Of a stretch of 42,645 nucleotides of DNA, positions 6,276-37,665 are shown piece after piece. The notes beneath the pieces were generated by a model, which saw only the letters and a program-made list of their open reading frames with translations, was not told the DNA's origin and searched no databases. Origin of the DNA: a virus; IMG/VR virus record IMGVR_UViG_3300021406_000020, positions 1 through 42,645 of that record; one strand, 5' to 3'. The position numbers and the translations under genes were made by a program. How positions within the stretch are numbered: position 1 is the stretch's first letter; each line of letters begins with the position of its first letter.

Positions 6276-6791
6276 TCACGAGTTTTCTTTATTCTCGGCT
6301 AAGTACTGTACTGCATTTTTCAAGAATTGAACGTTGTCTTTTAGGAAACCGATTCCTCTATTACAGTTTGAACATAATAGACCCCTTACTCTTCCAGTCT
6401 TATGACAGTGATCTATGCTCAAATTACGTTTTTCCTCTTCTTGTTTGCAAATAGCACACCGATTTTCCTGTTCATTAAGTAATTTATAATATATTTCCGG
6501 CTGGATTCCGTACTTTCTAATCCTGGAATTTCTCATAAAAACCTTCCTTTGTTCGGGATGATTTTCTAGCCATTGTTCCATGTACTTCTTTACCCTTTCA
6601 GGATTTTTCTTCGCAAATTTCTTTGCTCTTTCCCGATTGGGAATAGGGTTCTCGAAATTGGATTGTTTTATTCTGGCTAGTACTTTAGGTTTATTGTCCT
6701 CATAGTATTTTGCACTCTTCGCTTTTATCCTATCTCGATCACGGATATAATATTCTTTCGCTTTTCTCTGTTTAAGAGTAAGTGATTCCAT
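6276..6791 (-). CDS. Intron-encoded HNH homing endonuclease, 171 aa
   Basis: The N-terminal half is Lys/Arg-rich and should bind DNA. The C-terminal half is a recombination endonuclease VII-type HNH domain: CAICKQEE, then NLSIDHCHKTGRVRGLLC and NCNRGIG. The Cys pairs should bind zinc, and the DHCH segment is the active site. It lies in the 3' part of the group I intron and would cut intron-less coat genes to spread the element. It has its own promoter (TTGAAA, 17 bp, TATAGT) with the -10 ending 6 bp before the ATG, so it does not depend on spliced capsid mRNA. Confidence 0.88.
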   Translation of the reverse strand: MESLTLKQRKAKEYYIRDRDRIKAKSAKYYEDNKPKVLARIKQSNFENPIPNRERAKKFAKKNPERVKKYMEQWLENHPEQRKVFMRNSRIRKYGIQPEIYYKLLNEQENRCAICKQEEEKRNLSIDHCHKTGRVRGLLCSNCNRGIGFLKDNVQFLKNAVQYLAENKENS

Positions 6792-12021: not shown

Positions 12022-12259
12022 AGTCCTTATATTCTTTGATATATCGTTCGCATCCTTTCAAGGGATGTTTGTCGTGCCATTCATGGGACAATAAACATCC
12101 GCAGAATCCGCAATGTCCCGCTTCTTTCATGATGACTTCGATGGATATACTTCGTAGTTTAAATGCTTCCGTCTTAATGTATTTCCGTGGCTCGCCACGT
12201 TTTTTGATGCGATACTCCCGTGCTTTCTCTGTAAGATACTTTCGCCGTTGTTCGGTCAT
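12008..12259 (-). CDS. Small Cys-rich protein after terminase, 83 aa
   Basis: Start at the second ATG (12259, MTEQRRKYL), which overlaps the terminase stop as ATGA. Basic N-terminal helix, then CGFCGCLL and CERY...C, possibly one zinc site. HNH-like His residues (HEWHDKHP) are present, but a complete HNH motif is not clear. The portal promoter box lies in its final codons. It might be a small nuclease or a packaging accessory; this is uncertain. Confidence 0.55.
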   Translation of the reverse strand: MTEQRRKYLTEKAREYRIKKRGEPRKYIKTEAFKLRSISIEVIMKEAGHCGFCGCLLSHEWHDKHPLKGCERYIKEYKDCTHK

Positions 12260-14760
12260 TTCGGCCACATAAGTTGTACGCCCCCATCCGACACGATTTG
12301 GGCTTTCCTAATGCCGTCCATTGCACTTCTCGCCCCGAAGATTTTCACCTGACTGCCCGCAAATCGTTGCATCCCAATATCTGAATACAAGAGCGCATGG
12401 CAATTCGATACCAAAATACCCTCTGCGAAATACTCCGACTCATTACTTACTGCTATATTGATAACGTCCTTCTTTTCGATATTTTCGTGCAAACCAACGA
12501 TTTGAACATCGAGGGGAACAAAACTTACCGCCTGCCTTCCATTGTGTAGTTTTTTTAATATTGCACTCAATACAGTTAAAAGTTTTGGGTTCAACCAACT
12601 TAAAGGCTTTGATGGCATTAGCGCGTAAATGCCTCTTACCTTTGGTAGTTGTGAGCCATACATGGGATTTCTTTCTAATACGCCCCAAATGTTCCACGTT
12701 TGCTGTTCTAAACTTCTCATTCTTGAGTCTTTCGACAACGTGATGGCTCTGATGAAAAGCTCGCGGTTCACACAAAAGGTTTGTAATCTTGTTATTGAGC
12801 GGATTACCGTCTTTATGATGAATGACAAACCCCTCAGGAATTGCTCCATGAGTATCAATCCATATTTGCTGATGAAGCCTCGGTTGCCCATGTGCGCGAA
12901 GGGTTCCATTTGGAACGAAGTAAACTTTTGATTCGCGGCGGGATGAATTTGGATACCGTCTATAAGTAATTCCTTTGTATATAATGACTTCGCTTTTTGC
13001 CATGTGTATAGTTTAGCATGAGGACTGGTACTGTCAAGTCTGGTTTTCCCTTCCTCGGTAAAAATGGGATGGTCAGGAGTCGCCGTAAAACTAGAACCGT
13101 TAGAAAAATAAGCCGTGATAACCCTTACCTGACTTTGAGTTTTGCCTGCATGATACACCATATTGGTTCCTTTGCGGGTGAAAACCATATCGCCTATCTT
13201 GATGTCTTCGATATTTCTTTCCCCAGAAACCGTCAACACCTTAGTTCCGGCCACAAAACAGAAATGGTCTGGGCCGTTCCGTTTCCACACGTACTCTGCA
13301 CCCAAAAGACTTCGGTCATCCTTGCCAGGCTTTGCATCCACCGTGATTTCTTCTCGATACAAATACCCGAAGTGTGAGGCGAACTCCTCCCATTCCTCTT
13401 TTGTGCCATTCAGTCTATACCTCCCGATGTCCCGCATTTGTTCAACCATCAAGGTCATTTGTCTGTTCCGGTCAACTCTTACCGTGCCGTACTCATCATC
13501 CTCGCCCCATTCAACATAGTCATTTGATTTCCTATCCTTACGGTAGAACACTAAAAACACTCTGCCTGGATACTTTGCTTGGAGCTTTCTAACCCCAATC
13601 AAATCACCGCCCTGATCGAACACCGCGACCGACTTCTCGAACGTGTTGAGAAAACTCGCTATCTTGTCGTACGGGTCTTTGGTCGCCGTGATTTCAGTCT
13701 CATGGCCGTACAAGAATACCCCTTGATTATTTCGAAGCACATAATGAATCCCATGTCCTGTATCACATCCGATAATGACTCTGTCTTTCGGATTGTAGTA
13801 ATCATTCACCTCATCCACGCAATTCATCAAGACCGTCTTCGGCTCGATTCTGTCCTCGCTTCCGATATACGGAAGCCCTAAGATGTAGTTGTAGAAGTAT
13901 TGCTTGTCTTTTTGCGGGTCGTTAAACGCTTTGATGATGTCTTTTGCGCTCTTGTTGTAAAGCTGTAATTGTGAGATATGATAGCCGCTAAAATCTCCGC
14001 TTGCCGTGGGTTTCCAAATACCGTTAATACGTTCGGCGTCGGAAAGTCCGATGCCACAAGATTTGCATACATACTCCTGAGTTTCTTGATTGATAGACTC
14101 CGGCCACGTAAGGATTTGTTCATGATTGTTTTTGCATTTAATAAACCATTCTTTTTTATCCGATTGCTCCCAGTATACACTAACTCCGTGTCCTTGTAAA
14201 GACGGATGGCTGAAATACCAACGCATACCACCATCTTCTTGGGCCTGCAGACGATTCTCATATTGGGTGATGACCTGTCCGTCGCTTGCGTCAACTTCAT
14301 CATGAATATTCAACCCCGACGGGATCATCATAGCCTGCTTCGCACTGAATGTACCACGATAAAAAATCATTGCCTCGCCCACTTGTTTCTGTTCAACCGT
14401 ATCGTGGTCTTTTACAAGCTCCATTAACACGGGATTTTGGGCGATGATACGATTGATTGAACCACCAACCATGTCTTGAATATCAGACTGGGTAGGCAAC
14501 GTATATATGATTTGTCGCCGTTGCCTTGAAGCGATGAAGAAACTTTTCAAGGTAAACATGACCGTAGCTCCTATCTGCGGCGGCTTAAGAATCGCCTGTA
14601 GAGGGCTTAAATCATTGTAAATATCTATGAGGAACTTTCGCTTTTTGAACTCAATAGGGAAACCAACCTCGTTTTTTATCTCGTTCTGCTCTACCCATAA
14701 TGAGGGATATGCTTGGGCAGCCTCAATCTTTTGTTCAAGCGTGAGTATTTCTTTGGGCAT
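12256..14760 (-). CDS. terL: Large terminase subunit (lambda gpA-like) with an intein, 834 aa precursor
   Basis: Packaging motor. ATPase part: KPPQIGATV near residue 58, a deviant Walker A with lysine at the start as in lambda gpA, and Walker B NIHDEVDA near 150. CKSCG near 230 and GYHISQL fit the GpA family. Nuclease part: CDTGHG, VFDQGGD and PDHF/CHALLY. An intein occupies residues 501-786, exactly inside the last nuclease motif. Removal joins ...GPDHF to CHALLYSD and gives 548 aa. ATG 14760 overlaps the small terminase by 26 bp. A separate HNH gene lies in another frame inside the intein. Confidence 0.9.
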   Translation of the reverse strand: MPKEILTLEQKIEAAQAYPSLWVEQNEIKNEVGFPIEFKKRKFLIDIYNDLSPLQAILKPPQIGATVMFTLKSFFIASRQRRQIIYTLPTQSDIQDMVGGSINRIIAQNPVLMELVKDHDTVEQKQVGEAMIFYRGTFSAKQAMMIPSGLNIHDEVDASDGQVITQYENRLQAQEDGGMRWYFSHPSLQGHGVSVYWEQSDKKEWFIKCKNNHEQILTWPESINQETQEYVCKSCGIGLSDAERINGIWKPTASGDFSGYHISQLQLYNKSAKDIIKAFNDPQKDKQYFYNYILGLPYIGSEDRIEPKTVLMNCVDEVNDYYNPKDRVIIGCDTGHGIHYVLRNNQGVFLYGHETEITATKDPYDKIASFLNTFEKSVAVFDQGGDLIGVRKLQAKYPGRVFLVFYRKDRKSNDYVEWGEDDEYGTVRVDRNRQMTLMVEQMRDIGRYRLNGTKEEWEEFASHFGYLYREEITVDAKPGKDDRSLLGAEYVWKRNGPDHFCFVAGTKVLTVSGERNIEDIKIGDMVFTRKGTNMVYHAGKTQSQVRVITAYFSNGSSFTATPDHPIFTEEGKTRLDSTSPHAKLYTWQKAKSLYTKELLIDGIQIHPAANQKFTSFQMEPFAHMGNRGFISKYGLILMEQFLRGLSFIIKTVIRSITRLQTFCVNRELFIRAITLSKDSRMRSLEQQTWNIWGVLERNPMYGSQLPKVRGIYALMPSKPLSWLNPKLLTVLSAILKKLHNGRQAVSFVPLDVQIVGLHENIEKKDVINIAVSNESEYFAEGILVSNCHALLYSDIGMQRFAGSQVKIFGARSAMDGIRKAQIVSDGGVQLMWPK
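12443..13003 (-). CDS. HNH endonuclease nested out of frame inside the terminase intein, 186 aa
   Basis: This gene is on the same strand as terL but in another frame and lies wholly within the intein DNA. The N-terminal half holds an HNH_3 motif: GFVIHHKDGNPLNNKITNL, then RAFHQSHH. The C-terminus has CIECNIKK and CSPRCS zinc-type pairs. Its own promoter (TTGACA, 16 bp, TAAACT with extended TG) puts +1 on its ATG. It probably spreads the intein by cutting intein-less terL. Both frames stay open for 560 bp, so each constrains the other. Confidence 0.88.
   Translation of the reverse strand: MAKSEVIIYKGITYRRYPNSSRRESKVYFVPNGTLRAHGQPRLHQQIWIDTHGAIPEGFVIHHKDGNPLNNKITNLLCEPRAFHQSHHVVERLKNEKFRTANVEHLGRIRKKSHVWLTTTKGKRHLRANAIKAFKLVEPKTFNCIECNIKKTTQWKAGGKFCSPRCSNRWFARKYRKEGRYQYSSK
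13010..13037 (-). promoter_or_regulatory. Promoter of the nested HNH gene
   Basis: TTGACA at 13037-13032, 16-bp spacer ending ATGC, TAAACT at 13015-13010, then 6 bp to ATG 13003. It is embedded in intein-coding DNA and shares ATGCTAAACT with the plus-strand promoter at 36.97 kb. Confidence 0.68.
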
Positions 14761-15813: not shown

Positions 15814-16013
15814 TTTATGGGTGATTGCCAATTATTTCTTGCTTTTCTATCCCTCATCGCTTGCCATTCAAGCATATTATCCACAGGATGATGCAAAAAC
15901 TCCCAATTCTTTGCAGGGCGACCATTATCATCTGCTTCGCCCATCATCCATTCAAGAATATCGGGGTCTAATTCTTCTCCAACCTTTTTAATTGTTTTTT
16001 CAATCTCGGACAT
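15810..16013 (-). CDS. Unknown small protein after GroEL, 67 aa
   Basis: Acidic helical N-terminus (MSEIEKTIKKVGEELDPDIL) and an aromatic, polar C-terminus with HHPVDNMLEWQAMRDRK. Its ATG overlaps the groEL stop (TAATG), so it is co-translated with the chaperonin. No family recognised; a chaperonin partner is possible but unsupported beyond position. Confidence 0.6.
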   Translation of the reverse strand: MSEIEKTIKKVGEELDPDILEWMMGEADDNGRPAKNWEFLHHPVDNMLEWQAMRDRKARNNWQSPIK

Positions 16014-17629
16014 TATTGAGGTGTTTGCATTATCTGTTTTATCGCTTCATCTACGCTATTTTCATTTCGAGGGAGGAGAACAATAGTCCCTATTGTTAAT
16101 ATTCCGGCGGCGACCCCAATTGCATTTTTAAGTGCCTCAAAAACCACATCATAACTATCGACGATCCCTTCCCTGAACATATCTACCACTCCTCCCGTTT
16201 TAGAATCAAATCCATGCGTCGGCGTAGCTTCTGAAATGAATTTATATATCTGTTCTAGATTGGTTGCGCCCGTATTTTTGACTATCTGCTCAAATGGCTT
16301 TTTTAATGCTTCCTTCAAAATTTCATTTTTAATTTCCTTTGAAGCGTTGAGGAGTGCTACTCCGCCGCCGGGTAAAATGCCGTTTTGAAGCGCAGAATAG
16401 GCCGAACCAATAGCGTCTTCCACTTTATCCCGGCGCTGTCTTAAAGCGGAATCCGAATGTGCACCAACAAAATAGGTAGCAGTTTTGGTATTCAATCTCG
16501 CCGCCCTTGCGAGGGCTTCATCGCTTCCGTCCACCTTGAGCGCAAGCAAGTGGGTAGTTAAATCCTTAATTCCGTCAATAAAAGTATCTTCACGGGTTAC
16601 GGTGATCTTTCCGAATTTTCCCATGTAAGCCATCTTTGCGTCCTTCATCTTAATGCCTGATGCCGGGCTGATGATTCTACCGCCAGAAGCCTTTTCGAGG
16701 TCTTCCCACCACAAATCATTGAACACCGTAGGCATTTTAATCACCAAGAACCTGATTCCTAACGCTTGTGGCGCTCTCGCAAGGATAAAACTATTGAGAA
16801 TTGGCGCGTCCATTTCATCACAAAAGATAACAACATCTTTAACTCCCGCTTGGACTAATTCTCCTAAAAGTCCGTAGGCACTCCCATTTCCGTCTATCCC
16901 TCCCATTTCGCTTTGGTTCGTTATCTTGGACTTTGCCAAAAGCACCAAAGGGTTTTCAATCGTCGCCTGATAGGTAAATCCGTCCCCTTCCGCATCGCAC
17001 ATATACCGTGATGCATAAGTAGCCCCGTCAATCTTTATTCCCGTGCCGATTTCATAAGAGTCTTTAGTATCTTTTGACGCGGCCCAATTGACGATACCCG
17101 TGGTTCCGATATGGGAATAGATTTCTGCCAATAACTTCCCGATTGATTCATCCTCTGCGCTGATTGTTGCCACTTCTTCCAAGAGTTTAAAATCAATATT
17201 GCCGTCTTTGTCAACCAATTCCTTGCGTTGTTTTTTTAGGGATTCCTCGATCAAGGGGATACATTGTTCCAAATTCCTTTTCAAATCCATCGGGGACGCT
17301 TCGCCTAGATGTTTCATTCCTTCTTCGAGGACGGCCGAACAAAGCACGCAGGTCGTCGAGCTACCATCCGCCGAGTTTCGATTAGCTCGGTTGATAGCTT
17401 CTTTCAAAACGGTTGCACCGAGATTTTCCAATGGGTCTGCTAGCCTTATTGCGGCCGCGATTGAGTAACCATCATTCGTCGGATAGTAATGGGGCGCGGC
17501 AAATGCTTCAAGAAGCGAGTTTTTTCCCGCACTTCCTAAGGTAACGGCAACTGCACCAGAAACCTTCTTGACTCCTTCCATGAGTCCTTGCATCGCCTCC
17601 TTGCCGCTGTAGAGATTGTCGCGTTTCAT
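16013..17629 (-). CDS. groEL: Phage-encoded group I chaperonin GroEL, 538 aa
   Basis: The protein aligns by eye with GroEL over its full length. Nucleotide site: VTLGSAGKN (P-loop-like), NDGYS (catalytic Asp of the Asp52 type), ADGSSTTCVL (GDGTT-like, Asp87) and DKVEDAI plus GGGVALL near 400-420 (Asp398 type). The apical domain is divergent (KMPTVFNDL where GroEL has KAPGFGD). The C-terminal GGM repeat is absent. Start at ATG 17629 (MKRDNLY), 4 bp after the upstream stop; the longer upstream frame is not conserved. It would form a folding chamber, probably for capsid or other late proteins, with the GroES-like protein two genes upstream. Confidence 0.93.
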   Translation of the reverse strand: MKRDNLYSGKEAMQGLMEGVKKVSGAVAVTLGSAGKNSLLEAFAAPHYYPTNDGYSIAAAIRLADPLENLGATVLKEAINRANRNSADGSSTTCVLCSAVLEEGMKHLGEASPMDLKRNLEQCIPLIEESLKKQRKELVDKDGNIDFKLLEEVATISAEDESIGKLLAEIYSHIGTTGIVNWAASKDTKDSYEIGTGIKIDGATYASRYMCDAEGDGFTYQATIENPLVLLAKSKITNQSEMGGIDGNGSAYGLLGELVQAGVKDVVIFCDEMDAPILNSFILARAPQALGIRFLVIKMPTVFNDLWWEDLEKASGGRIISPASGIKMKDAKMAYMGKFGKITVTREDTFIDGIKDLTTHLLALKVDGSDEALARAARLNTKTATYFVGAHSDSALRQRRDKVEDAIGSAYSALQNGILPGGGVALLNASKEIKNEILKEALKKPFEQIVKNTGATNLEQIYKFISEATPTHGFDSKTGGVVDMFREGIVDSYDVVFEALKNAIGVAAGILTIGTIVLLPRNENSVDEAIKQIMQTPQ

Positions 17630-17633
17630 TGTA

Positions 17634-17867
17634 TTAAAGTTTAATGTGTGGATACTCGCGGGCAAACAAGGGATCGTGGCTCTGCAACATCTCTCTCGCA
17701 AAGTATGAGGCCGCTATATGCCGGGGAAAATCGCTTCTGAGATGTAATTTTGTTCCACATCGTTCGCATCGTACTAATTCTCCTTTTTCTGTGTATCGTA
17801 TCGTTAGCCATTTGTGTAAAATCGGGGTGTCGTCTCTGCATAAACTATTTTGATAGCGCGTCTTCAT
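17634..17867 (-). CDS. Zinc-ribbon protein between GroES and GroEL, 77 aa
   Basis: Start chosen at ATG 17867 (MKTRYQNS), overlapping the GroES-like stop as ATGA; an ATG eight codons earlier is less likely. RCERCGTKLHLR gives one CxxC, and a further Cys and His residues are spread along the protein. It is the middle gene of a three-gene chaperonin operon and ends 4 bp before groEL. A gene in this position is unusual. Function unknown. Confidence 0.7.
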   Translation of the reverse strand: MKTRYQNSLCRDDTPILHKWLTIRYTEKGELVRCERCGTKLHLRSDFPRHIAASYFAREMLQSHDPLFAREYPHIKL

Positions 17868-26635: not shown

Positions 26636-27046
26636 TTAGCTCTTTTTCGGGGCGATAAGCTCCAACCGTCCTAACTCCGCTTCGTATTCTTTCCTACCAA
26701 AAGGCGGCGCAATCGTTTGGCTTTTTCTTTTGAGTGCAAGGAATGCTTTATCTCCCATTCGTTCAGTAATCCACAAAGTAAACTCGACTGGTTCTCGATG
26801 CGCCCAATAAAGATGACAATAAAAACAAAGTCCTATCGAATTGGAGGTGTCCCAGCGAGTCGAGAGATTGCCTCTAGTAAAAATGTGCGCACACTGCGTC
26901 GCTCCTGTTTTTCCGCATCGTTGGCATATCGGATCACGCGCCCGGATATATCGGCTAAATAACTTATCGAGTTCTTTTTTCGCTTTTTTAACATTGAAAG
27001 GTTTTGATTTCTTTTTAGGGTCTTTATGGATGCCGGAGATTCTCAT
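26636..27046 (-). CDS. NinG-like HNH recombination nuclease, 136 aa
   Basis: CQRCGKTGATQCAHIFTRGN and LCFYCHLYWAHREPVEF match the NinG/Rap type in which zinc Cys pairs hold an HNH-like core. The lambda protein resolves recombination intermediates. ATGA overlap with the 62-aa gene. Together with ERF and SSB it completes a recombination set. Confidence 0.78.
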   Translation of the reverse strand: MRISGIHKDPKKKSKPFNVKKAKKELDKLFSRYIRARDPICQRCGKTGATQCAHIFTRGNLSTRWDTSNSIGLCFYCHLYWAHREPVEFTLWITERMGDKAFLALKRKSQTIAPPFGRKEYEAELGRLELIAPKKS

Positions 27047-27231
27047 TTTTCTTCTTTATCTTCTTTTGCGTGCCACCCCGCGCCGATTACTTTATACCAA
27101 ACATCCAGTCCTTTCGTCGCTAACCCGCACATCGAACAATCCTTAGGAACGCCAAATCCAAAAGTTCCCGTGGCAATATTATCTTGGTGTCCACACTTCT
27201 TACATTCAATGGTATCCATTATAAAACTCAT
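27043..27231 (-). CDS. Small zinc-ribbon protein, 62 aa
   Basis: CKKCGHQDN and CSMCGLA flank a Gly-rich loop, a complete four-Cys zinc ribbon. CCCGCGCGAAA precedes the ATG, as at the 88-aa gene. Coupled to the NinG-like gene. Confidence 0.65.
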   Translation of the reverse strand: MSFIMDTIECKKCGHQDNIATGTFGFGVPKDCSMCGLATKGLDVWYKVIGAGWHAKEDKEEK

Positions 27232-27259: not shown

Positions 27260-27637
27260 TTAAAAAGAGTTATTCGCCATTACGCTAGGGGGGATTCTTT
27301 TTATTCTATTTGCTGGGTTCAATTTAGATTCTGCCCAGTCCCACTTCATGCGTTTAAAAAAGTCTTCATGTACTTTCATTGACTTGTTTTTACTTTCTTC
27401 GCTGGGTTCAATCCATTGCGGAGCGCGTAATTTTAATCGTTCGTCATTCTGCTTCTCCTGCTCGTCCGTTAATTGTTCGGTTTCCCTAATGAGACGGATA
27501 AAATTAACATTGATAGCTAACTCGTCATTCCGTAAATATACCACAGACTTTCCGCTTTTTATCTCATCCTTGATGCGATCATTTTCATCTTGGGAAACAA
27601 TTATATCCTCTCCGTCCACCTTATAGCGATAATTCAT
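27260..27637 (-). CDS. Unknown early protein, 125 aa
   Basis: N-terminal beta part (YRYKVDGEDIIVSQDENDRI) resembling small LytTR-like or PH-like folds, then charged helices with Trp and a basic C-terminus. ATGA overlap with the Rep-like gene suggests a partner in replication. No catalytic motif. Confidence 0.6.
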   Translation of the reverse strand: MNYRYKVDGEDIIVSQDENDRIKDEIKSGKSVVYLRNDELAINVNFIRLIRETEQLTDEQEKQNDERLKLRAPQWIEPSEESKNKSMKVHEDFFKRMKWDWAESKLNPANRIKRIPPSVMANNSF

Positions 27638-28323
27638 TTTGTAAATGCGAATTTAGTTTTATTCTTTTCTTCAATTTTTCCTTTCTTCTGATTCCAAAAC
27701 GATTCTAGTTTTGCCATTTTTTCTTCTAATTCTGCGGGGCTGGTTATCACAGGAGCATACGGCATTCCATTAGACGTCCTAACGAGACGCACGACCTTTT
27801 CCAAATACGGGATACCATATCGTTCATTGAGCCGTTTCGCAGCCGCCCATTCATGCTTGCGCCGGAACAATTCTTTATACGATGGCCTGATTTCCTTAAA
27901 TAAGTCAAAAACCTTATTTGAATCCGCGTCAGCGGTAATGGTTATATTTCTATTAGTTTTCTTAAATACTGGTTGGAGTACAGTTTCTGTACTACCTTTG
28001 AGTACAGTTTCTGTACCTATTGAGTACGCTTTCTGTACTCTAGAATCATACCAAGTAATATCGTAAATATTATTTTTTCTATGGGTTCTTTCTATTTTTA
28101 GGTGTCCACTTTTTTCCATATCCGATATTAAATGCGATAGGGTGCTTTTTGACCCCATACCTAGATCGTCCATGATAGTTTTATAGCTTGGGAAAGCATC
28201 ATGTTTGTTTATCGCCCACAATTTTAACCAAAGATAAAAACGTAATTCCTGCGGAGTACATTCCTTAATAAGTTCGTACGATGCGATAGAGAATTTCTGT
28301 TCGAGGTGTTTTATTTTTGGCAT
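27634..28323 (-). CDS. Replication-initiator-like HTH protein, 229 aa
   Basis: Start at ATG 28323 (MPKIKHLEQKF), after the attenuator; the longer frame runs through the hairpin. Residues about 25-80 form an HTH_36-type winged helix (FPSYKTIMDDLGMGSKSTL, then MEKSGHLKIERTHRKNNIYD). The C-terminal 90 residues are charged helices, like the partner-binding tails of phage O-type proteins. It heads the early operon, so it probably starts replication with host enzymes, as no phage polymerase or helicase is seen. Confidence 0.65.
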   Translation of the reverse strand: MPKIKHLEQKFSIASYELIKECTPQELRFYLWLKLWAINKHDAFPSYKTIMDDLGMGSKSTLSHLISDMEKSGHLKIERTHRKNNIYDITWYDSRVQKAYSIGTETVLKGSTETVLQPVFKKTNRNITITADADSNKVFDLFKEIRPSYKELFRRKHEWAAAKRLNERYGIPYLEKVVRLVRTSNGMPYAPVITSPAELEEKMAKLESFWNQKKGKIEEKNKTKFAFTK

Positions 28324-28329
28324 GGTGAT

Positions 28330-28363
28330 TAAAAAAGACAAAAGCCCATGCGCGAACATGAGC
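28330..28363 (-). terminator. Intrinsic terminator in the leader of the Rep-like gene
   Basis: GCTCATG, loop TTCGCG, CATGGGC (one G-U pair), then TTTTGTCTTTTTT on the minus strand (28343-28330). It lies between the promoter at 28454-28425 and ATG 28323, so transcription of the early operon must pass it. The loop strand GTTCGCGC can pair instead with GCGCGAAC 20 nt upstream, which would open the terminator. Confidence 0.7.
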
Positions 28364-29902: not shown

Positions 29903-30127
29903 TCATCTCTCCTGTATCTCCAGTCGGTGAGCGAGTTCTTTGATTTTTCGCTCGCGTTGAATGTTAAGGATTCCCTTGTGGTCTTCTTCGAGGGAAGCCC
30001 GTAGCTCGTTGATGAGTTCCACTTTGGTTTTGGCGACATCAATTCTGTCGGCCGGAATGGTGATGGTTTCTGCGAGGGCAATAGCGGCGCAGAAAATAAA
30101 GAGTAAGACGAACTTGAGTAAGCGCAT
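29903..30127 (-). CDS. Exported helical protein, 74 aa
   Basis: Signal peptide MRLLKFVLLFIFCAAIALA, then a charged helical mature part. It may be an Rz-like or periplasmic protein. The SD sequence AGGAG (30138-30134) is partly in the base of a 9-bp hairpin, so translation may be controlled by RNA structure. First gene of the SD cluster. Confidence 0.6.
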   Translation of the reverse strand: MRLLKFVLLFIFCAAIALAETITIPADRIDVAKTKVELINELRASLEEDHKGILNIQRERKIKELAHRLEIQER

Positions 30128-30240
30128 AGAAGTCTCCTATTCAGTTGGGAATGTGCTGAATTGGAGAGTTTGAACGCTCTCCGTTCTGCCCCTGATAACC
30201 TAGTTGTATAGATAGTGAGGTTAGGAGCAGAGCGGAAAGC
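30128..30240 (-). promoter_or_regulatory. Structured leader upstream of the SD cluster
   Basis: Three stems in a row: CCTATTCAG/CTGAATTGG (30136-30164, one T-T mismatch), GGAGAG/CTCTCC (30163-30182) and GTTCTGC/GCAGAGC with inner TAACCT/AGGTTA (30183-30233). The first covers part of the AGGAG site of the 74-aa gene. No promoter was found for this strand here. Confidence 0.5.
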
Positions 30241-30242
30241 AC

Positions 30243-30272
30243 TTGACGATAGTAACAGAAATGAGTTACAAT
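30243..30272 (+). promoter_or_regulatory. Plus-strand sigma70-type promoter of a small RNA
   Basis: TTGACG at 30243-30248, 18-bp spacer, TACAAT at 30267-30272; predicted +1 at 30279. The RNA start coincides with the base of a stem-loop. Confidence 0.7.
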
Positions 30273-30278
30273 ACGTTA

Positions 30279-30361
30279 TGTAGAGGTAGGTTATCCGTAA
30301 AAACTCCTACTACATCCCAAGCTAGGATGGGTCTCCGCATAATGAGTGCGGAGATTTTTTG
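30279..30361 (+). ncRNA. Candidate plus-strand small RNA, about 83 nt, three stem-loops
   Basis: Stem 1: TGTAG (279-283) and TAGG pair with CCTA and CTACA, with AGG bulge and 15-nt loop. Stem 2: CCCA/TGGG or ATCC/GGAT. Stem 3: TCTCCGCA/TGCGGAGA with loop TAATGAG and TTTTTT, an intrinsic terminator. A consensus promoter stands 6 bp upstream. It fits exactly into the gap between two minus-strand genes. No known RNA family recognised. Confidence 0.7.
30332..30361 (+). terminator. Plus-strand intrinsic terminator of the small RNA
   Basis: Perfect 8-bp stem TCTCCGCA/TGCGGAGA, 7-nt loop, then six T. On the minus strand there is no T-run, so it works for plus transcripts only. Confidence 0.75.
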
Positions 30362-30365
30362 TTGC

Positions 30366-30560
30366 CTATGCCTGATTAGAGGTAATAGGCGTGGAAGGAA
30401 AAAACTCTTGTTCTACGACCGATAAGATACCGACGATAATCGCCGTTGCCGAACCGAGCGTAGCGGGATTAGCATTAAGAAACGGAACAAGAGAGGAAAC
30501 AATAAGCCCTGCGACCGCATAACCTGTTTTAAGTAAAAACTCTTTTAAATTTTCGTTCAT
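30366..30560 (-). CDS. Holin-like membrane protein, 64 aa
   Basis: Charged N-terminus (MNENLKEFLLK), then one long or two short membrane segments (YAVAGLIVSSLVPFL and ATAIIVGILSVV) and a polar end. Overlaps the peptidase stop (ATGA). Size and place suit a holin or antiholin, but topology is a reading only. Confidence 0.55.
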   Translation of the reverse strand: MNENLKEFLLKTGYAVAGLIVSSLVPFLNANPATLGSATAIIVGILSVVEQEFFPSTPITSNQA

Positions 30561-31480
30561 TTTTTGAGAGAATAATCATTTAATATTTCTCGACCTTTTG
30601 CTTTACCGAGTCCATTAACTAAAGATGATAACCACTGCACAAGTTGCTGAAGCCATGTTTGCTCTTGGACTGTCGTAGGATTGGCTGGAAGCGTCGGTGC
30701 TGGAGGTGGCGGCACAACGTTTACCGTTCCTTGAAATGCATAGATGACCGGATAATTTACCAAATCCTTATCTGCTGGCTGGTAGTGGTCGTAAATCCAT
30801 ACGTTCGTTCCGTTGAATATCTGATAATTCATCACCGCGTGGTTCGGATCAGTCCCTGATGGTGGCGGAGTGGGGTTTGTTTGATTCCATCCTGCGTCCG
30901 TTACGACGCCGAGAATAAGGGGAGCTGACGGAAGCGCGGCAATCATATTTTTTATATTCTCAGTTCCGTCGCATATCCAGCTGTACGTTATAGAACTTTT
31001 CCCCCCAATGGCTGAAAGAAACTGCTGGCCCTTGTTTAAGACAGCTTGAGAAATCGGTGCAAGATATTGTTCGGGAGTCAGTTGTAAATCTACCGGTAAA
31101 TCGCTCCACGGCACACAACCGTATTTTTGAATTACTTGCCATCCCTCCTGCACTGAATTGCCGTTAAAACCATTTCCGGTCAAAATTTGAAGATAGCGAG
31201 GGGAAGAGTGAAAGTGGGCTTTCCCATCGAGAGAATTAGAATCCATAAATCCTAATTCGGTGAATAGATTTAACGTTCCGGCGGGGATTTGATTGTTCGC
31301 GATCAGATAATTTATCTGTGCGTCAAACGCCTCTTGGGTGGAAAACAAAACGCACCCGTCAGAATCCTGTCCCTCGATGAGTTGCCCTTCGTAGAAATCT
31401 ATATAGGGTTTCCAGTTTCCATCCGTGCGAGGAAGGCCTTTGATACCACGATAGTCTGTTGGAGTCGGTTGGAATATCAT
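30557..31480 (-). CDS. Papain-like cysteine peptidase of the lysis region, 307 aa
   Basis: QDSDGCVLFS (Gln38, Cys43) matches the papain QGSCGSCWAFS layout. His214 in NHAVMNYQ and Asp231 in WIYDHY fill the His-Asn/Asp positions, and GCVPWSDLP matches the papain G(I)VP-SDYP segment. There is no signal peptide; export would need the holin-like proteins beside it. The Pro-rich linker (about 253-265) leads to a small helical tail. Endolysin with peptidase activity is likely; processing of a host surface protein is possible. Confidence 0.62.
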   Translation of the reverse strand: MIFQPTPTDYRGIKGLPRTDGNWKPYIDFYEGQLIEGQDSDGCVLFSTQEAFDAQINYLIANNQIPAGTLNLFTELGFMDSNSLDGKAHFHSSPRYLQILTGNGFNGNSVQEGWQVIQKYGCVPWSDLPVDLQLTPEQYLAPISQAVLNKGQQFLSAIGGKSSITYSWICDGTENIKNMIAALPSAPLILGVVTDAGWNQTNPTPPPSGTDPNHAVMNYQIFNGTNVWIYDHYQPADKDLVNYPVIYAFQGTVNVVPPPPAPTLPANPTTVQEQTWLQQLVQWLSSLVNGLGKAKGREILNDYSLKK

Positions 31481-36982: not shown

Positions 36983-37462
36983 ATGACCCCACACCAAATA
37001 GTGCTGTTAGCCTTAATTAAGGCCTTAACTCAAGAAGTAACCTTATTGGAGAATGAACTCGCCCAACAGACTATGGTGGTAGCCACGACTACACCGATAG
37101 TTTTTGCGCCTCCAATACAATCCGAAGTGATTACGACGACAATTCCGCCCGTGATAATTCAACAACCCACTCTCCAAAGTGCCCCAATTAATATCGCCCC
37201 ACAACCTGTTATAACGCCTTCATGCGATCTCGTGATAACACCCGATACTGGGAATGGATTGGGTCTTTCTTGGAGTTCCCAGAATGAATCAGGTAGTGGA
37301 ACACTATTTGATAATTATAAAGGAATCTATGATGGTGGAGTACCCCAATTTCAAGTAATTGAACAATACGTCGCCCCATCGGGGACACAAATTGATCTAC
37401 AGAATTTCACCCAAGCAAAACTACAATTTAGCGATGGAACAACCTGTAGCGCACAATTCTAA
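36983..37462 (+). CDS. Plus-strand protein with coiled head and beta domain, 159 aa
   Basis: The N-terminus (HQIVLLALIKALTQEVTLLE) is an amphipathic/coiled helix, followed by a Pro/Thr-rich linker and a beta domain (SCDLVITPDTGNGLGLSWSS to the end). This layout recalls Patescibacteria surface proteins. Only two genes in this window are on the plus strand. TAATG coupling to the next gene. A repressible early function is suggested by its operator. Confidence 0.65.
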   Translation: MTPHQIVLLALIKALTQEVTLLENELAQQTMVVATTTPIVFAPPIQSEVITTTIPPVIIQQPTLQSAPINIAPQPVITPSCDLVITPDTGNGLGLSWSSQNESGSGTLFDNYKGIYDGGVPQFQVIEQYVAPSGTQIDLQNFTQAKLQFSDGTTCSAQF

Positions 37463-37665
37463 TGGATATTGATTGGAAGGGTGAACTAATCGGAGGAGCG
37501 GTAATTATTTTTGCCGTTTTGACGGGGACTGAACTTTTCGTGTTCCCGGCACTGGTATTAGCCCTGATTGTTTTTTACTGGAAGGGGGAAGTGGCGGCTC
37601 GAAATCTTGTAATTTTTCTTTCTGTTTGGCTTTTAATATCGCTTGCGCTTTGGAAGTTGCTTTGA
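37462..37665 (+). CDS. Plus-strand membrane protein, 67 aa
   Basis: Two membrane helices (GGAVIIFAVLTGTELFVFPALVLALIVFYW-type region and LVIFLSVWLLISLALW-type region) separated by a Lys/Glu/Arg turn. It overlaps the 3' end of the minus-strand ejection gene by 161 bp, tail to tail. Superinfection exclusion or holin-like functions are possible. Confidence 0.62.
   Translation: MDIDWKGELIGGAVIIFAVLTGTELFVFPALVLALIVFYWKGEVAARNLVIFLSVWLLISLALWKLL

Follow-up and report, generated by a model that had tools for sequence, protein, structure and literature searches.

The OOP RNA of phage lambda, which is 77 nt long, acts via RNase III to cleave the cII mRNA just outside the cII coding sequence (PMC5869508, PMC12197685). 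Two further phage antisense RNAs offer points of comparison. The sar RNA of phage P22, with a length of 68/69 nt, pairs with the phage ant mRNA, and PAK_P4as15 from Pseudomonas phage PAK_P4 is tied to the endolysin gene and has been proposed to delay lysis (PMC12197685). Here, we analyzed a predicted small RNA on the plus strand of the IMG/VR virus record IMGVR_UViG_3300021406_000020, of which the whole stretch of 42,645 nt is called the window below. We suggest, with a probability of roughly 0.4, that it is a phage-encoded small cis-antisense RNA that acts like lambda OOP on a lysis-module transcript.

The likeness to OOP lies in the general design. Both are short phage RNAs (77 nt versus ~83 nt) with their own promoter and terminator, both are antisense to their operon and cover the 3′ flank of a gene, and RNase III occurs both in the host of OOP and in the probable host class of this phage. 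However, no sequence relation was found, and the RNA matches no Rfam family. OOP lies between cII and O and overlaps the 3′ end of cII, whereas the RNA described here lies between a holin-like and a signal-peptide-like open reading frame (ORF); no cII-like gene was identified, and the O-like gene (27634-28359) is ~2 kb away. Cleavage by RNase III, described for OOP, is what we infer for this RNA. Since sequence, neighbours and target all differ, we did not class the RNA as OOP. PAK_P4as15 resembles it in belonging to a phage lysis module and in being missing from a close relative, PAK_P3 (PMC12197685), but the RNA studied here sits in a gap and is a prediction. The sar RNA is a phage antisense RNA of similar kind that acts on a different message, ant mRNA, and has no relation to this RNA in sequence or gene context. 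The RNA therefore probably belongs to a functional kind already known in other phages, here in an unusual host group.

The original prediction had placed a plus-strand RNA of about 83 nt, with a promoter, three stems and a terminator, at 30243-30361 between minus-strand genes. As a set of sequence signals this was confirmed: our scans recovered the promoter, the 8-bp terminator with its six T and the intergenic placement (Table 1). The promoter (−35 TTGACG, 30243-30248; −10 TACAAT, 30267-30272; spacer of 18 nt) scores 10/12, and a separate script found two plus-strand promoters of at least 10/12 in the whole genome, this being one of them. To calibrate the start, we pooled the promoters scoring at least 10/12 in the window and its relatives. 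An ATG opening at least 60 codons lay 6 or 7 nt past the −10 in 18 cases, compared with about one case at each other offset from 0 to 60. Applied to the RNA, this rule puts +1 at ~30279, in agreement with the start first proposed; the A at 30278 could serve instead (range 30278-30280). Because of the same 18 cases, many genes look leaderless, and leaderless genes are apparently common in this phage family. In the window, the minus-strand ATGs with a promoter at this offset are at 6791, 15064, 18115, 21197, 23488 and 26576. The literature that we searched held no paper evidently on leaderless promoters in Patescibacteria.

The terminator consists of the arms TCTCCGCA (30332-30339) and TGCGGAGA (30347-30354) followed by TTTTTT (30355-30360), and its stem ends 82 nt past the promoter. 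Folded alone, the hairpin reaches −16.4 kcal/mol (z −4.71). Read on the minus strand, it is followed by CCCATCC and no T run, so termination is expected in one direction only. Across both strands of the 42,645 bases, it is the only perfect terminator with at least 7 pairs followed by at least 5 T, and the minus strand of the genome has no perfect terminator of at least 7 pairs. Because the sole strong terminator of the genome lies on this strand, the defined end of the RNA was probably selected. Among 100 dinucleotide shuffles of the genome, such terminators averaged 0.04 and the promoter-plus-terminator cassette never occurred (0/100). Related phage DNA, 423 kb in total, contained two terminators equally strong and no more, and one weak similar cassette (in L072), which overlaps an ORF.

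The RNA segment folds with a minimum free energy (MFE) of −28.1 kcal/mol (z −3.76) into three predicted hairpins, and the most stable 100-nt segment of the genome, by absolute and by GC-corrected energy, is 30301-30400 on the plus strand. This folding signal comes mostly from the terminator. Without it, stems 1 and 2 give z −0.80, which 43 of 200 shuffles equalled and which is not beyond chance. All three of the stems first described are therefore in the predicted fold, but stems 1 and 2 are weak and no better than shuffles. The claim that the RNA encodes no protein was borne out. The sole ATG near its start (30278) is directly followed by TAG and yields no protein when read in the usual leaderless way. 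A formal 60-codon TTG frame (30243-30425) opens before the RNA start, within the −35 hexamer, and crosses the terminator. A discrete small non-coding transcript of the plus strand is well supported by these signals, and we consider it very probable that the RNA is transcribed.

Table 1. Coordinates of the predicted RNA, its signals and the neighbouring minus-strand features in the window.
Feature	Position	Strand	Basis or remark
Promoter, sigma-70-type, TTGACG-18-TACAAT	30243-30272	+	Consensus scan; same type as the window's minus-strand promoters
Predicted small non-coding RNA, ~83 nt	30279-30361	+	Fold, cassette scan, calibrated start; 3′ end inside the T run
Stem 1, weak, two alternative pairings, 15-nt loop (30291-30305)	30285-30311	+	z −1.62 alone
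GUAAAAACUC, loop-1 segment with 10-nt complementarity to the holin-like mRNA (codons 7-10)	30297-30306	+	Post hoc; suggestive only
Stem 2, five-pair hairpin CATCC/GGATG, 7-nt loop	30313-30329	+	z −1.57 alone
Intrinsic terminator, 8 perfect pairs and six T, unidirectional	30332-30360	+	Pattern scan, folding
74-aa ORF, signal-peptide-like start, spanin-like by appearance only	29903-30127	-	ORF list
Hairpin pairing the AGGAG ribosome-binding site of ORF 29903-30127	30130-30170	-	Unpaired probability of GGAG 0.0
Long imperfect hairpin (GCUUUCCGCUCUGCUCCUAACCU...AGGUUAUCAGGGGCAGAACGGAGAGC), abuts the −35 of the RNA	30174-30242	-	Folding
64-aa holin-like ORF, two hydrophobic segments	30366-30560	-	Appearance, position
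Candidate site for a second pairing, GAGUUUUUAC, within the holin-like mRNA	30533-30542	-	Complementarity to loop 1
307-aa ORF, precedes the holin-like ORF in the direction of transcription	30557-31480	-	Alignment with relatives

The setting of the RNA points to an antisense role. It occupies an intergenic gap of 238 nt (30128-30365), and the order along minus-strand transcription is the 307-aa ORF, the 64-aa holin-like ORF, the gap and the 74-aa ORF. All 57 ORFs that we counted as genes lie on the minus strand (two plus-strand ORFs at 36983-37665 are also plausible), and the promoter and terminator of the RNA are oriented against all neighbouring genes. A promoter of its own on the opposite strand and a 3′ end set by an intrinsic terminator are features of the cis-antisense class. 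The stop codon of the holin-like ORF is 5 nt past the 3′ end of the RNA.

The host is probably an ultra-small member of the Patescibacteria. Relatives of the terminase large subunit (TerL) occur in contigs of metagenome-assembled genomes (MAGs) assigned to Parcubacteria, Jorgensenbacteria, Nealsonbacteria and Shapirobacteria, with one in a Woesearchaeota MAG, and the portal protein is distantly related to that of a TM7 phage. As the probable host class, we took the class of one genome bearing a TerL relative. In this class, Hfq was found in 0 of 142 genomes and ProQ in 0 of 55 by searches in which control genomes scored, and RNase III was found in 92 of 93. With Hfq and ProQ missing and RNase III present, a long perfect cis duplex is favoured over a chaperone-dependent trans mode.

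We therefore provide a putative mechanism for the RNA. Host RNA polymerase would start at 30279 and stop in the T run (30355-30360), giving a plus-strand RNA of ~83 nt. The minus-strand transcript of the lysis module would continue past the holin-like gene, through the gap and into ORF 29903-30127. Immediately downstream of the holin-like stop codon, it would thus include ~83 nt to which the RNA is perfectly complementary. Host RNase III would cut the RNA/mRNA duplex, and the lysis-module mRNA would be uncoupled or lowered until the antisense RNA is outpaced by late transcription. A contact between loop 1 and the holin-like message at codons 7-10 may assist. Among the 57 gene starts, the holin-like one is the second-best partner for loop 1, and 1% of shuffled loops score equally well against it; this contact is suggestive only.

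Several observations weigh against this mechanism. The RNA is a prediction from sequence signals, the labels holin-like and peptidase-like come from appearance and position, and the host was deduced from distant protein relatives. The overlap of the RNA with its minus-strand target is limited to the gap after the stop of ORF 30366-30560, with readthrough of the gap assumed. The match between loop 1 and the holin-like mRNA was chosen after the fact and is AU-rich. Additionally, no homologue of the RNA turned up anywhere that we searched, and hence covariation lends no support; records very close to the window's own genome may be missing from the searched sets, so this negative is no proof of absence. 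BLASTN found none in phage records, in 18 related virus records, in five TerL-bearing genomes or in 379 Patescibacteria genomes, and none emerged over all loci with BLASTN at word size 7 and nhmmer. One match from the BLASTN searches (L083, E 0.001) was rejected as apparent coding sequence with no terminator there. Exact DNA patterns of the terminator, loop and stem 2 were not found in viral contigs. An Rfam search, proposed with the original prediction, yielded no family: at the gathering threshold the window had no match, and a permissive search of 30100-30420 (E up to 10) gave chance microRNA-like matches only. Among the 48 TerL relatives in IMG/VR, the nearest are fragments ending before the RNA region, and no relatives were found via the neighbouring proteins of the RNA. 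Via the 307-aa peptidase-like protein, only G003 and G004 appeared among long relatives. Both lack the RNA at the equivalent place, where the gaps are 3 nt (G003) and 96 nt (G004) and our scan showed no antisense promoter. Lysis in this family therefore does not depend on the RNA.

Beside the RNA, the minus strand carries a structured element that was not part of the original prediction. The segment 30128-30242 folds on this strand with an MFE of −44.4 kcal/mol (z −7.35), a signal above that of the RNA. The corresponding gap of G004 is also structured on the coding strand (z −3.83), with no evident sequence similarity to 30128-30242. Perfect 9-nt inverted copies of TAGGTTATC lie in the minus-strand hairpin (30194-30202) and in stem/loop 1 of the RNA (30287-30295), and they could allow an alternative self-pairing of the minus-strand mRNA. 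We rejected the copies as operators, inexact copies being no commoner than chance. The structured gaps of both phages would suit a different reading, in which the hairpins belong to the minus-strand mRNA and control its intercistronic stability or translation, with the plus-strand promoter and terminator being read-outs of palindromes. We regard this as quite improbable for the RNA itself, because the T run and the promoter are strand-specific, 30279-30361 folds better on the plus strand (z −3.76) than on the minus strand (z −3.01), and the cassette was absent from the shuffles; it may hold for 30128-30242 alongside the RNA. A combined version appears rather doubtful to us. In it, an antisense RNA working without Hfq and ProQ times lysis by contacting the holin-like start through loop 1 and by forming an 83-nt cis duplex that RNase III cuts, and this action is coupled to the adjacent minus-strand hairpins over the ribosome-binding site of the next gene.

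The strongest alternative, although still unlikely, is a trans-acting small RNA that either base-pairs, through loop 1 or loop 2, with other mRNAs of the phage or the host, or binds a host protein. The loops are accessible, a CUCCU stretch resembling an anti-Shine-Dalgarno sequence lies beside loop 1 (30291-30305), and the start of ORF 27043-27231 is the best phage target of loop 1 by energy (−11.75 kcal/mol). However, this target is no better than those of shuffled loops: the best energy over the genes is reached by 23% of them, none of the phage's genes exceeds chance as a trans target over the whole genome, and 40% of shuffles do as well as the 50-nt 5′ part of the RNA. The search for complementary stretches in phage mRNAs, also proposed earlier, thus left no gene standing out, and this mode is further disfavoured because neither Hfq nor ProQ was found in the probable host class. 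The original wording, that the RNA may act on mRNA or bind a host factor, proved too broad and is retained in a form narrowed by the position of the RNA and by this host background. We find it less probable again that antisense transcription itself matters, through promoter interference over the gap, or that it aids replication, with the RNA as a by-product. The promoter faces minus-strand transcription, and the lambda pO promoter, near the origin and firing opposite to genes, is a precedent (PMC12197685); the minimum of the cumulative GC skew falls at 28-29 kb, and iterons are found in the replication gene (27973-28038). Yet interference requires neither a strong terminator nor a short defined RNA, and the probable origin is 2.2 kb off, with the transcript heading away from it. 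A relic or chance cassette that is never expressed would fit the lack of the RNA in any relative and stems 1 and 2 being within chance. This is very improbable, as the cassette was missing from all 100 shuffled genomes even before a gap location was required and the sequence shows no decay. Solitary repeat-like RNAs can be phage-encoded, which would be a point for an RNA-based anti-CRISPR that mimics a CRISPR repeat. We give this reading hardly any credence: the permissive Rfam matches include no CRISPR family, the locus has no repeated unit, and the 379 Patescibacteria genomes hold nothing similar save one chance match in apparent coding DNA. The OOP-like cis-antisense mechanism is the one that we favour.

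Among the neighbouring proteins, neither the holin-like ORF (no significant match) nor the 74-aa ORF was placed by Pfam or PHROG, and the G004 counterpart of the former is weakly holin-like (E 0.017). The conserved C43, H214 and D231 suggest that the 307-aa protein is cysteine-peptidase-like; it had no meaningful PDB or Pfam match, and its structure model (pLDDT 39.7) was too poor and was not used. Farther along the minus strand, the replication-initiation-like gene (27634-28359) contains three direct repeats of the GTACAGAAACTGTACTC type, 22-24 nt apart on the minus strand (27973-28038), and with the GC-skew minimum these look like an in-gene replication origin. Ahead of the likely start of this gene (28322), and 60 nt past a strong promoter, a ten-pair hairpin with a T-rich tail (28365-28342, minus strand) is a possible attenuator. 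The TerL gene (12256-14760, minus strand) includes a Hint/intein-like domain (Pfam Hint_2), seemingly absent in many TerL relatives, whose matches end near residue 500, and is overlapped by a 186-aa ORF of HNH-like look (12443-13003). Near the terminase genes, the phage encodes a GroEL-type chaperonin (16013-17701, minus strand; Pfam Cpn60_TCP1, PHROG 5725).

Our limited literature searches found no paper on small RNAs of Patescibacteria phages. If the proposed mechanism is true, this would be a phage RNA regulator in hosts seemingly without the usual RNA chaperones, and it would show what minimal machinery suffices. It would also hint that lysis is under RNA control in a group of phages known chiefly through metagenomes.
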